Positions 36,115 through 47,067 of a DNA stretch of 64,000 nucleotides are shown here, piece by piece; position 1 is the first letter of the stretch, and every line of letters starts with the position of its first letter. This DNA is from Pseudoxanthobacter soli DSM 19599. GTDB taxonomy: Bacteria > Pseudomonadota > Alphaproteobacteria > Rhizobiales > Segnochrobactraceae. Position numbers and translations under genes: made by a program. A model generated the notes under the pieces. The model was not told the DNA's origin and searched no databases. It saw nothing but the letters and a program-made list of their open reading frames with translations. The stretch lies in contig CAMDHY010000001.1 of NCBI GenBank assembly GCA_945898215.1, positions 62,001 to 126,000 of the forward strand, read 5' to 3'.

Positions 36115-36845
36115 GCTCGCGCCTCCGTCGGCACCACGAAGCCGATGTCGAGCCCCTCCGGCCCGTGCGCACGCCACAGTGGGCCGACGAGACCCGTCGA
36201 CAGCGCCGCGCGCACGTCCTCGGTGCGGTCGGAACGGCACCACGTACGCGCAACGTCGTCATGCGGCGCCGTCGCGCGCGCCGAACCCGCAACCGGTCTG
36301 TACAGCAGGTAGCGCTCGAGACTGCCGTACGCGAGGACCACGTCGACGATCGCGAAGCCCTCCGCCATCAGGTTGCGCCAACTCACCGTGTTCGCCGGTG
36401 CGGCAGTCGCAAACACGTGGCGGAAGCCGAGGTTCCACGCCCGCCCGATCCGGCGTCGCACCAGCGCCCGCTGCAGGCCGCGGCCGCGGAAGCCCGGGTC
36501 GACGCCGGTGCCTGCAATCTTCGCCAGGCCGTCGTTGCCGCCGAGGCCAATCCGCGCGCCGGCGTCCTCGCCGTCGGCTAGCACGGTAAGGAGCACGCCG
36601 TAGCCGATCAGCCGCCCGCCGGCGACGCCGGTCTCGGCATCGGTGCCCTGCACGACGGCCCCGACGATCTCGCCGCGTCCGGCGACGACGCTCTCGAAGA
36701 AGCTCCGCCGTTCCGGCTTCACCAGGCCGCGGTCGACCCCTTCGATCGATCGCCGGTGCAGGCGCTCGACGGCGTCGAGCGCATCGGCGCCGAGCCAGAC
36801 GAACCCGACCCCCGGCATATCGCCGTCGGCGGGGCCGTCATTCAA
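36111..36845 (-). CDS. GNAT-family N-acetyltransferase
   Basis: A protein of about 244 residues with a GNAT fold. The acetyl-CoA loop region reads DPGFRGRGLQRALVRRR (R/Q-x-x-G-x-G/A motif), followed by VFATAAPANTVSWRNLMAEGF, the typical motif B. The TTG at 36845 is preferred because GGAGG lies six bases upstream. It overlaps the binding-protein stop by 8 bases; an ATG at 36818 is an alternative. Its place between a periplasmic binding protein and an alanine-racemase-like gene suggests action on an amino-acid-like metabolite, which is inference. Confidence 0.8.
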   Translation of the reverse strand: MNDGPADGDMPGVGFVWLGADALDAVERLHRRSIEGVDRGLVKPERRSFFESVVAGRGEIVGAVVQGTDAETGVAGGRLIGYGVLLTVLADGEDAGARIGLGGNDGLAKIAGTGVDPGFRGRGLQRALVRRRIGRAWNLGFRHVFATAAPANTVSWRNLMAEGFAIVDVVLAYGSLERYLLYRPVAGSARATAPHDDVARTWCRSDRTEDVRAALSTGLVGPLWRAHGPEGLDIGFVVPTEARA

Positions 36846-37869
36846 CGATGACCTCCGCATAGTTCAGCATCGCGAGCGGCGGATAGAGCTGGAAGCTCTT
36901 GGCGAGCGGCATGTTGACGATGAGCGAGAAGCGCTTCAGCGTCTCGACAGGGATCATCGCCGGGTTCTTGCCGCCGACCAGGATCTGCTCGGCCTTGGAG
37001 GCGGCGAGCTGGCCCACCGAATAGTAGCGGCAGACGAGCCCCGTCACCGCGCCGCCCGAGCGGATGGCGAGTTCGGTCGCCCCGAAGGTGGGCAGCAGCA
37101 CCTGCTCGCAGATCGGCGTCACCTGCTCGAGGATCGAGCCGAGGAAGGTGTCGGGCACCAGATAGAGCCAGTCGGCGCCCTCCTCCTTGATCTCGCGGAT
37201 CATGGCGTCGAGCCCGTCGGCCACCGGCTTGCCGGCCGCGTCCGTCTTGAACTGCCGCTCGACGAGGCGGAATCCGACCGTCGGCGCCAGCTGGCGCAGT
37301 TCCTCGACGAGCGCCACCGAGTTCTGTTCCGTCGCGGTGTAGAGCACGCCGAGCGAATCGAACGGCCGGTAGGACTGCATGGCGCGCAGCTGCGCGTCGA
37401 GCGGCACGACGTGGAAGGCCCCGGTGACGTTGCGACCCGAGGAATCGAGGCTCGGCACAACCTTGGCGCGCACCGGCGCCGCCACCATCGTGAAGATCAC
37501 CGGCCGGTCGGCGATGTACTTCGCCGGGTCGGACGCATCGAACGGGCCGACTGTCGCGAGCGTCACCGGCGTACCCCAGGTGTAGACGAGGTCCGGCTTC
37601 AGTTCGCGAATCTCGTCGATGAAGCCGGCCACCTTGGTCGGGTCGCGATCGACGTCGCGGCTGATGTACTCGACCGGGATCTGCCGCTGCGCGAGGTAGT
37701 CGCGGAAGCCCGCCTCCACCTCGGTGTCGCCGCGAAAGGTGATCATATAGATGGTGTAGGGGCGCTCGCGCGCCGTCTGCGCAAACAGCGGCCCCGTCGC
37801 CGCAGCGGTGCCGAGGGTGGCACCGGCGGCGATGAGACCGAGCGCCTCACGCCGGTCGATGCGTCTCAT
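36838..37869 (-). CDS. ABC-type periplasmic binding protein (ABC_sub_bind family), no transporter genes
   Basis: A 343-residue binding protein of the YtfQ/TrpX-like ABC_sub_bind family. The N-terminus has a twin-arginine-like signal (RRIDRREALGLIAAGATLG) and cleavage near FAQ. The two lobes are visible: IYMITFRGDTEVEAGF, ELKPDLVYTWGTPVT, the middle region with GVLYTATEQNS, and VPDTFLGSI. No ABC permease or ATPase is adjacent. It follows the sensor-MFS fusion gene by 129 bases on the same strand, so it may feed ligand to the sensor proteins instead of a transporter. Confidence 0.87.
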   Translation of the reverse strand: MRRIDRREALGLIAAGATLGTAAATGPLFAQTARERPYTIYMITFRGDTEVEAGFRDYLAQRQIPVEYISRDVDRDPTKVAGFIDEIRELKPDLVYTWGTPVTLATVGPFDASDPAKYIADRPVIFTMVAAPVRAKVVPSLDSSGRNVTGAFHVVPLDAQLRAMQSYRPFDSLGVLYTATEQNSVALVEELRQLAPTVGFRLVERQFKTDAAGKPVADGLDAMIREIKEEGADWLYLVPDTFLGSILEQVTPICEQVLLPTFGATELAIRSGGAVTGLVCRYYSVGQLAASKAEQILVGGKNPAMIPVETLKRFSLIVNMPLAKSFQLYPPLAMLNYAEVIVE

Positions 37870-37998
37870 GTCGCCATCCCCTGCCCAGAATCACGCCGAG
37901 GCTGCCGACGCGGCCTCCGACGGTCCTCTTCACTATCCCAATTCGCCGGGAGCGACCACGCGAGGGGGATTAAATTCTCGTCACGCGGCGGTAGCCTC

Positions 37999-45663: not shown

Positions 45664-46928
45664 GCGAGACATCGCTCGAGCAGCACCGCAGCAGAGCGGT
45701 CCTCGGGCTCCATCTCGAGACATGTCCGGAAGCGCTCGGCCGCCGTGTCCGGCAGCCCGTGCGAGAGCGCCGTGACGCCACGCTCGTGTAGCTCGATCAG
45801 TCGCAGGTGGTCGTCCGAAACGCTACGGGCGCGGCCGATCAGCGCATGGATCGGCTCGATCGCACTGCGGCCGCGCAGTGCCACATGATCGACCTTGCGG
45901 AAGACGAAGGCGTCGCCGGCGGCGGCACGGGTGTCGTGCGCGACGAGCACGCGCTGGCCGTAGCGCTTGGCCGCCTCTTGCAGCCGCGCCGCGACGTTGA
46001 CGGCATTCCCAATCACCGTGAAGTTGCGGCTCTGCTCGGCGCCGATGTCGCCGGCGATCACCGCGCCGGTGCCGATGCCGATCGCCACATCGATCGCCTC
46101 CGCCCCTGCCACGCCGCTCTCAGCGAGCTCGCGGCGCAGAGCCGGCAGGCTCTCGAGCTGGCCAAGTGCCGCATTGCAGGCGTCGATCGCCTGCTGGCCG
46201 GCATCGGTGAACGGCGGACCCCAGCACGCCATCACGGCGTCGCCGATGAACTTGTCGGTGATGCCGCCCGCCGCCCCGATCGGGATGGTCATGGCGGTTA
46301 GGAAGCGGTTCAGCACCGAGACGAGGCTTTCCGGGTCGAGCCGCTCCGACCAGCCGGTGAAGTCGCGCAGGTCGGCGAACGACACCGTCTTCACCTGCCG
46401 GGCGCCCTTCAGGTCCTCGACGCCGCCGCGATCGAGGATGCGATCGACGATCCGCGGGTCGACATATTCCCCGAACAGCCGCTTCAGCTTGCGCCGCTTG
46501 CGCTGCTCGGTGATGTCGGAGAACACCACGATGACGCCCTGGCGCTCCACGTTGCCGTCGCGCTCCAGCATCAGGAACGTGGAGGTCACGTGCAGGTCGA
46601 CCCGATGGCCGCCGACCATCACCGTCACCTCGCGGCTGTGGGTCGCCTCATTCTCGTAGACGGCTTTCAGCACCACCTCGTTGAAGTCGTCGAAGCTCTC
46701 CTCCATGAGGAAGACCTCGCCGAACGACTGGCCGACGGTCGCCGCCGGGTCGAGCCCGAGGATGCGGCCGGCCGCGGCATTGAAGGTGATGATGCGGCCC
46801 TTGAGGTCGATCGTGGCGACCCCGTCGCGCATGTTGGCGAGGATCTTCTCGTAGATCAGGCAGCCCAGTCCGCCGTCCACGCCGCCCACGATCGTTCGCC
46901 TCGCCACCTTCCGCCGCCGCGGCACCAT
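45588..46928 (-). CDS. PAS-domain class III adenylate cyclase
   Basis: A soluble protein of about 446 residues: PAS domain near 25-140 (GVATIDLKGRIITFNAAAGRILG, then VVFSDITEQRKRRKL) and a class III cyclase domain near 165-345. The two metal-binding Asp residues are in SFADLRDFT and FIGDAVMA. The Lys of TDKFIGD fits ATP use, and GNAVNVAARL supplies the transition-state Asn and Arg. A C-terminal segment of about 60 residues is tetratricopeptide-like. It is active by motif. The start may be ATG 46928 or GTG 46943. It overlaps the SpoIIE gene end to end on the opposite strand. Confidence 0.88.
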   Translation of the reverse strand: MVPRRRKVARRTIVGGVDGGLGCLIYEKILANMRDGVATIDLKGRIITFNAAAGRILGLDPAATVGQSFGEVFLMEESFDDFNEVVLKAVYENEATHSREVTVMVGGHRVDLHVTSTFLMLERDGNVERQGVIVVFSDITEQRKRRKLKRLFGEYVDPRIVDRILDRGGVEDLKGARQVKTVSFADLRDFTGWSERLDPESLVSVLNRFLTAMTIPIGAAGGITDKFIGDAVMACWGPPFTDAGQQAIDACNAALGQLESLPALRRELAESGVAGAEAIDVAIGIGTGAVIAGDIGAEQSRNFTVIGNAVNVAARLQEAAKRYGQRVLVAHDTRAAAGDAFVFRKVDHVALRGRSAIEPIHALIGRARSVSDDHLRLIELHERGVTALSHGLPDTAAERFRTCLEMEPEDRSAAVLLERCLAYAETGVEGGGSGAATVPGAAAAPK

Positions 46929-47067
46929 AGCCCGACTCGGCACCCCGGGGGAAACCCGTGGCCGGGCGCGCCGGACGTCGCGGGGCCGCGCTGTCGGAAC
47001 GTCGTCCGCCCGTTCGTCTTTGAAGGAGGCGGGGCTGCGGCGGCCCCGCCCAACGGGAGAGCGTCAG

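Follow-up and report, generated by a model that had tools for sequence, protein, structure and literature searches.

The window considered here is a stretch of 64,000 nucleotides from Pseudoxanthobacter soli DSM 19599 (contig CAMDHY010000001.1, positions 62,001 to 126,000). It contains a cassette of two divergent operons that encode an orphan periplasmic binding protein, small sensors lacking an output domain, fusions of such sensors to major facilitator superfamily (MFS) domains, and a receptor phosphatase of the SpoIIE type, with a gene for a class III nucleotide cyclase alongside. These genes are a conserved unit across several bacterial families, and the cassette points to an uncharacterized route by which a signal from outside would reach a protein switch within the cell and, probably, a cyclic-nucleotide enzyme beyond it. 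The reading that we favor, with about even confidence, is that a binding-protein-dependent receptor complex drives a partner switch that probably controls the class III cyclase, much as in the SiaABCD system with a new front end. A preliminary description, made from the sequence alone, had proposed a signaling complex of binding protein, sensors, MFS fusions and phosphatase. Its observation is confirmed and was understated; it missed the RsbW/STAS switch, the cyclase as likely target, and the genes for a GNAT acetyltransferase and a racemase.

Organization of the Cassette

The two operons lie 206 bases apart and have a mirror-image gene order, the left one on the minus strand and the right one on the plus strand. 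The features of the locus are listed below.

34473..34946, plus strand: RsbW-like HATPase_c_2 switch kinase (Pfam HATPase_c_2, E 8.7e-24, 84.4 bits; start perhaps near 34530)
34969..36153, minus strand: alanine-racemase-family enzyme (start approximate, open frame to 36243; NCBIfam alr 165.1 bits, just below the cut-off of 168)
36111..36860, minus strand: GNAT acetyltransferase (Pfam Acetyltransf_1, 27 bits, above the cut-off of 20.7)
36838..37869, minus strand: PF04392 periplasmic binding protein, 343 residues (Pfam E 4.9e-24)
37999..40017, minus strand: left sensor-MFS fusion, 672 residues, with sCache-like domain, linker and MFS domain (Pfam MFS_1)
40020..40700, minus strand: left small sensor, 226 residues, without output domain
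40701..40906: divergent intergenic region between the operons, 206 bases
40907..41671, plus strand: right small sensor, 254 residues, TTG start, without output domain
41658..43523, plus strand: right fusion, 621 residues, with sensor and degenerate MFS-like domain
43525..45663, plus strand: receptor phosphatase, 712 residues, with dCache-like, HAMP and SpoIIE/PP2C domains (Pfam SpoIIE, E 3.3e-52)
45588..46943, minus strand: PAS-class III cyclase (Pfam Guanylate_cyc, E 1.7e-18, and PAS)

The preliminary description had each operon open with a small sensor lacking an output domain, followed after 2 bases or with overlap by a fusion of 620–670 residues, and the genes lie where it placed them. In the left operon the small sensor is followed after 2 bases by the 672-residue fusion and, after a further 129 bases, by the binding-protein gene, which the GNAT gene overlaps by 23 bases. 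In the right operon the small sensor overlaps the 621-residue fusion by 14 bases, and a single base separates the fusion from the gene for the receptor phosphatase, with its dCache-like, HAMP and SpoIIE domains. The PAS-cyclase gene is convergent with the phosphatase gene and overlaps its SpoIIE tail by 76 bases (45588–45663); an overlap of SpoIIE and cyclase genes recurs in loci L013 and L014. A promoter scan of the divergent region (40701..40906) returned no sigma-70-like match.

Conservation of the Gene Set

A search of 61 genomes (the window's own included) with the right fusion matched four other genomes, and a scan of public genomes with the left fusion added two further loci. All six share a common order, namely GNAT, binding protein, left fusion and small sensor, followed divergently by small sensor, right fusion and SpoIIE protein. 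Because the same gene order recurs in other genomes, the arrangement is not due to chance. Among these six relatives an RsbW gene with an adjoining STAS gene is present in five, a racemase gene in four and a convergent PAS-cyclase gene in four. The cassette is larger than the preliminary description stated, with the genes for the GNAT protein, the racemase-family enzyme and the RsbW-like HATPase belonging to it in relatives.

The left-fusion profile matched 20 of 385 genomes from the window's class at an E-value of 1e-60 (the window's own included) and, at 1e-50, 9 of 398 genomes from its phylum, five of which lie outside the class. Every new locus was mapped with profiles of the cassette proteins. 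Of the 32 loci found through the fusions, 30 could be evaluated, as L037 and L082 are on contigs too short to judge. A binding protein lies near the fusion at all 30 loci, with a center-to-center distance of 1.1–1.8 kb in 27 and of 2.4–3.4 kb in L049, L056 and L057. The genes therefore travel together, one of two points on which the preliminary description had made its proposal depend; the other, that the fusions are no ordinary transporters, may fail for the strongly conserved left MFS domain. A second class gave matches in 4 of 345 genomes, with the fusion beside the binding protein in each (L067, L087, L088 and L089). A plasmid search with the left fusion gave no match at 1e-60. Pairwise distances among the binding protein, fusion and SpoIIE protein are correlated (r 0.76–0.84, n = 20), which indicates joint inheritance only, since species relatedness was not controlled for.

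The same association is seen from the side of the binding protein, whose profile matches 24 of the same 385 genomes at 1e-40; the gene is near a fusion in 17 of them, at a contig edge in G127, and without a strong fusion match in six. Across the 385 genomes, 18 have both proteins, 2 the fusion only and 6 the binding protein only (Fisher p 7e-24, the genomes not being independent), and the contigs of the two fusion-only genomes break off inside one of these genes, the binding protein or the fusion. All 23 testable binding proteins among the 24 adjoin sensor domains. One of the six without a strong fusion match (L074) has a divergent sensor-MFS gene alongside. The other five (L075–L079) have beside the binding protein a protein of approximately 355–372 residues that contains two sensor domains and no MFS domain. 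All five match the small-sensor profile with the first of these domains (E 6e-6 to 1.6e-13) and the fusion-sensor profiles with the second (E 2e-3 in L075, at most 1e-8 in the other four), so that the same sensor pair occurs in the same order as in the cassette, in a single chain. These five loci represent two lineages, as four of them belong to one family. Since sensor domains accompany the binding protein even where there is no MFS domain, the sensor pair looks like its constant partner. At L076, genes for BatD and a VWA-TPR protein come ahead of the binding-protein gene.

Gene Fusions and Output Swaps

Several of the cassette proteins are joined in single chains elsewhere. In L068 and L069 (one genus), the small sensor and the sensor-MFS protein form one chain of approximately 855 residues, in which small-sensor profiles match within residues 20–214 (best 47 and 56 bits), followed by the left-fusion sensor region (40 and 36 bits) and then the MFS domain. 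A single open frame of 973–987 residues in L056 and L057 (one genus) places a fusion-type sensor and a HAMP domain ahead of a whole SpoIIE receptor. RsbW forms the C-terminal part of a cyclase protein in L015 and L016 (one genus) and in L043; the Pfam scan, which covered L016 and L043, confirms the cyclase part in L016 and gives a score of 20.8 against a cut-off of 21.9 in L043. Similar RsbW fusions in L044 and L053 were rejected, as the extra N-termini of these stop-to-stop frames are out-of-frame readings. Finally, L045 and L047 (one genus) each encode a protein that begins as the SpoIIE protein does, with its receptor half (profile positions 1–421), and runs into a class III cyclase instead, identified by Pfam in L045. 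The frames of these receptor-cyclase swaps are:

L045:14674-16860
L047:2961-5147

A gene for a dCache-HAMP-cyclase also lies directly before the trio of binding protein, small sensor and sensor-MFS fusion in L087.

These arrangements bear on the route that the preliminary description had drawn from the binding protein through the sensors to the phosphatase. As a functional unit, this route is well supported by co-location and gene fusions; that the proteins also touch one another we infer. The proposed passage of the output through the MFS fusion is its weakest step: the MFS domain is absent at five loci, and in L056 and L057 sensor and HAMP domain are joined directly to the SpoIIE receptor.

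Sensors and MFS Domains

The seven closest loci have 14 small sensors, and a simple hydropathy analysis gives two membrane spans in 12 of them, the exceptions being the right small sensor of the window (three spans) and the L017 small sensor (four). The small sensors of the window score below the cut-offs of the Cache models, and an L048 orthologue passes sCache_3_2 (33.4 versus 28.4). In the predicted structure of the right fusion, the sensor part resembles the domains of CitA, DcuS and WalK (Z 9.7–10.8). A comparison of the sensor profile with solved structures gave no convincing relative by sequence (best E 0.069), a result that rules out no fold family. The structure predictions of the fusions were made from three-row alignments (window, L017 and L018), and reliance was placed solely on the sensor region of the right model, with block means of about 72–88, the left MFS match being taken as support only.

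The fusions each have 10–14 hydropathy spans, two of which come from the sensor, leaving approximately 8–12 for the MFS part. The left fusion matches Pfam MFS_1 (E 8.3e-33, 114.2 bits, cut-off 33.4). No Pfam or NCBIfam family, MFS_1 included, matches the right fusion, which aligns to the left one as a profile over residues 24–578 of 672 (hhalign probability 99.8, E 1e-29). On the basis of this profile comparison the right fusion is assigned as a homologue of the left, and its MFS-like domain as a degenerate MFS homologue. The "12-helix MFS-like domain" of the preliminary description thus stands as to family, with a span count of about 8–12 and a degenerate right-hand copy.

Conservation of the left fusion was analyzed over 31 rows, the window included, leaving out the cut L082, the divergent L074, and L087–L089. 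Charged residues of the MFS domain are kept in nearly all rows (E285 in 28; R369 and R516 in 30; R396, R612, E615 and R616 in 31), one position is Asp in 29 rows and Gln in the window (537), and the glycine motifs resemble MFS motifs A and C. Mean column conservation of the MFS domain over the same ten loci is 0.627 on the left versus 0.433 on the right. We read these data as suggesting that the left MFS domain still binds or moves something and that the right one may now be structural.

The Binding Protein and Its Possible Ligand

The cassette binding protein is the only PF04392 match of its genome at an E-value of 0.001. The preliminary description noted that no ABC (ATP-binding cassette) transporter genes accompany it, and this is borne out: its gene is flanked by the sensor-MFS fusion and the GNAT gene (Pfam), and no ABC permease or ATPase was recognized by eye among the called genes of the window. 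At each of the seven closest loci, the N-terminus of the binding protein is twin-arginine-like (motif judged by eye). The window protein scores 84.7 bits against the NCBIfam TrpX model, which it does not pass (cut-off 390), and its closest solved relatives by profile are 3lkv, 6hni and 3lft. According to the available part of the source, these bind phenylalanine, tyrosine and tryptophan, i.e., aromatic amino acids (PMC6816091). Because the Tyr-Tyr motif of 3lkv is kept at the aligned position in the window protein, an amino-acid-like ligand is plausible, and the GNAT and racemase neighbors may be a hint that the amino acid is a modified one. Beside or near the cassette at L059:7087-8067, L070:11976-13286 and L068:7581-8306 lies a further binding-protein-like gene (NMT1_3 or SBP_bac_3), unrelated to the first. 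At L048:6949-7917, a ketopantoate hydroxymethyltransferase-like gene lies between the binding protein and SpoIIE genes.

The Partner Switch and the Cyclase

The phosphatase has a SpoIIE domain scoring 177.7 bits in Pfam, a HAMP domain above the cut-off and a dCache_3 match below it. The SpoIIE catalytic motifs GGDF[FY]D, DVSGKG, TDG[VI]TE and DD[IVL]T are present in the window and its six closest relatives. SpoIIE is present at 18 of 41 loci. RsbW (14 loci) and STAS (12 loci) were found only within these 18; the remaining 23, which include short contigs, gave neither (Fisher p 9e-8 for RsbW, the loci not being independent). Two of three RsbW ATPase patterns are found in all six rows, the third being missing in L015, and the STAS rows read SSAG in five of five. 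Contig C158, which holds the genome's only short STAS frame, also encodes what appears by eye to be an extracytoplasmic function (ECF)-type sigma factor/anti-sigma pair within a few kb of the STAS gene (L083:1486-2791, 5857-6216).

A cyclase of some kind is found at 13 of the 41 loci: a PAS-cyclase in the window, L013, L014, L017 and L018; the RsbW fusion in L015, L016 and L043; the receptor type in L045 and L047; other types in L046 and L054; and the dCache-HAMP-cyclase of L087. The window cyclase keeps all four motifs looked for, and an apparent loss of the metal motif in the cyclases of four relatives was dismissed as the product of a too-strict pattern, as each of the five PAS-cyclases has the first Asp of the metal site at the aligned position. 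The RsbW-cyclase gene fusions and output swaps suggest that a class III cyclase is probably the target of the partner switch. They also raise the question of whether RsbW/STAS switches control the synthesis of cyclic AMP or cyclic GMP in Proteobacteria, as SiaABC controls cyclic di-GMP. In PADLOC, the cyclase matches the PycC models of Pycsar defense (E 1.1e-22), a likeness that any enzyme of class III may show, and the other seven cassette proteins scanned gave no match. Elsewhere in the genome, contig C145 (L084:4585-8381) carries another SpoIIE gene, of HisKA-REC-SpoIIE type, with genes for an RsbW-like protein and a PAS protein after it; the latter was initially considered a cyclase beside the second SpoIIE gene, and Pfam gives PAS and no cyclase.

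Proposed Mechanism and Alternative Explanations

In the mechanism that we favor, the PF04392 protein would catch a ligand, plausibly amino-acid-like, and the loaded binding protein would dock on two single-Cache-type domains, those of the small sensor and of the N-terminus of the sensor-MFS protein. The left MFS domain may serve as a transporter-sensor ("transceptor"), with the complex reading its state, and the right pair, its MFS domain decayed, would couple sensing to the dCache-HAMP-SpoIIE receptor. By the established logic of partner switches, SpoIIE would then dephosphorylate STAS, which would capture the RsbW-like kinase. The target freed by this capture is probably the class III cyclase. 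A broader formulation, which we put forward tentatively and with less confidence, holds that the cassette represents a new class of transmembrane receptor, a binding-protein-dependent transceptor in which an sCache pair, heteromeric and carried on an MFS protein, is gated by an orphan type I binding protein, the module being plugged by lineage into a SpoIIE switch, class III cyclase receptors or type VI clusters.

Several observations weigh against the favored mechanism. A number of the gene fusions are each supported by one genus only, and the predicted fusion models are poor (mean pLDDT, the predicted local distance difference test, 54 and 49). SpoIIE was not found at 23 of the 41 loci, several of them on cut contigs, nor a cyclase at 28. 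In the window itself no STAS gene lies beside the RsbW gene (gap 34946–34969, where relatives have it), and the STAS frame on contig C158 is among genes of another kind. Finally, the MFS domain is the most conserved part of the left fusion over the 31 rows, and transport may for this reason be its main job.

This last point leads to an alternative that we regard as somewhat unlikely, in which the cassette is a binding-protein-dependent MFS transporter: the sCache domains would be a docking platform handing ligand to the left MFS domain, with phosphatase and cyclase as separate regulators that share the locus. Besides the conserved charged positions (28–31 rows), it has in its favor that the fold of the left MFS model, a low-confidence one, is closest to YajR, VMAT and NorA, and that the trio occurs without SpoIIE in stretches of approximately 20 kb at L051, L052, L059 and L066–L070. 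Against it stand the sensor and receptor gene fusions, the five binding proteins whose partners are tandem sensors without an MFS domain, and the right MFS domain, which has decayed (0.433 versus 0.627) yet is kept. Under the favored mechanism, the left MFS may also transport. Co-location without a physical complex, with independent modules for nutrient uptake, partner switch and cyclase under shared regulation, appears improbable: the neighboring outputs do differ by lineage (SpoIIE, cyclase, type VI genes or none recognized), yet there are gene fusions of small sensor with sensor-MFS, of sensor with SpoIIE receptor and of RsbW with cyclase. Less probable still is a self-made signal loop, in which the racemase and GNAT enzymes would make a modified (e.g., D- or N-acetyl-) amino acid that the left MFS exports and that the binding protein and sensors read back. 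At 14 of 38 loci a GNAT gene does adjoin that of the binding protein, a racemase gene is present at 7, a further racemase copy, 37% identical to that of the cassette, lies on contig C5 of this genome, and the aromatic ligands of the solved relatives, as given in the available part of the source, would fit such a loop (PMC6816091); however, 31 of the 38 loci show no racemase.

Comparison with Known Systems

The proposed front end shares features with two characterized receptors. In LuxP-LuxQ, a soluble binding protein reports its ligand to a Cache-type periplasmic receptor, as is proposed here; in contrast to the cassette, LuxP comes from another binding-protein family, LuxQ is a histidine kinase and there is no MFS protein. 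In UhpC-UhpB, an MFS-family protein senses on behalf of a signaling partner, a likeness to the cassette, although that system has no binding protein and no Cache domain on the MFS protein. In our judgment, the front end appears to combine features of LuxP-LuxQ and UhpC and is best filed under neither; it may constitute a new class. Binding-protein dependence is also found in some kinase receptors, and we are aware of no case in which a binding protein serves an MFS protein. For ABC and TRAP (tripartite ATP-independent periplasmic) importers, such dependence is established, according to the available part of the source (PMC7535918). If the binding protein does work with the MFS protein, this would be new, either as a principle of transport or as an architecture of receptors. 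TrpX and CD0873, of the same fold family as the cassette protein, are binding proteins of ABC importers (PMC6816091); the neighbors of the cassette protein are not ABC genes.

The downstream half is, by comparison, of a known kind that would work like SiaABCD and the Rba switch. The window phosphatase does not pass the NCBIfam SiaA model (E 4.7e-13, 48.6 bits, far below the cut-off of 700), and to our knowledge SiaA is accompanied by no binding protein, small sensors or sensor-MFS fusions. As described in the accessible part of the source, SiaABCD of Pseudomonas aeruginosa likewise comprises a membrane HAMP-PP2C phosphatase, a kinase, a phosphorylatable antagonist and a nucleotide cyclase, although SiaD is a diguanylate cyclase and the cassette enzyme is of class III (PMC7647112). 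The Rba switch of the alphaproteobacterium Rhodobacter capsulatus consists, as here, of STAS (RbaV), HATPase (RbaW) and PP2C (RbaY) proteins; RbaY is a REC-PP2C protein, and, unlike for the cassette, no receptor front end is described in the available part of the source (PMC3999984). As to the view of the preliminary description that the system goes under no known name, no description of such a system was found among the open-access papers listed from PubMed Central, a search that cannot show absence from print, and the downstream half is of a known kind.

Type VI Secretion Genes and Other Neighbors

Genes for type VI secretion surround the trio or are close to it at 7 of the 41 loci. Pfam identifies TssK, FHA, TssG and a ClpB/ClpV-type ATPase in L068, VgrG and TssA in L066, a ClpB/ClpV-type ATPase and Hcp in L048, and Hcp in L051, where TssC is approximately 21 kb away (with L081). 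L088 has a VgrG-like gene only, and L067 and L069 were assigned on visual inspection and on their resemblance to L066 and L068; L066, L068 and L069 are from one genus. Type VI secretion as a general output was rejected, since TssC (E 1e-60) occurs in 5 of 20 fusion-positive and 65 of 365 other genomes (Fisher p 0.29), so that there is no general association and the link is local. These neighborhoods nevertheless suggest an environmental input to the control of secretion. The window's own genome contains TssC, with a type VI cluster recognized by eye on another contig. Adjoining the cassette in the window (47539–52607) are glycine cleavage genes (P subunits, H and T), also recognized by eye.

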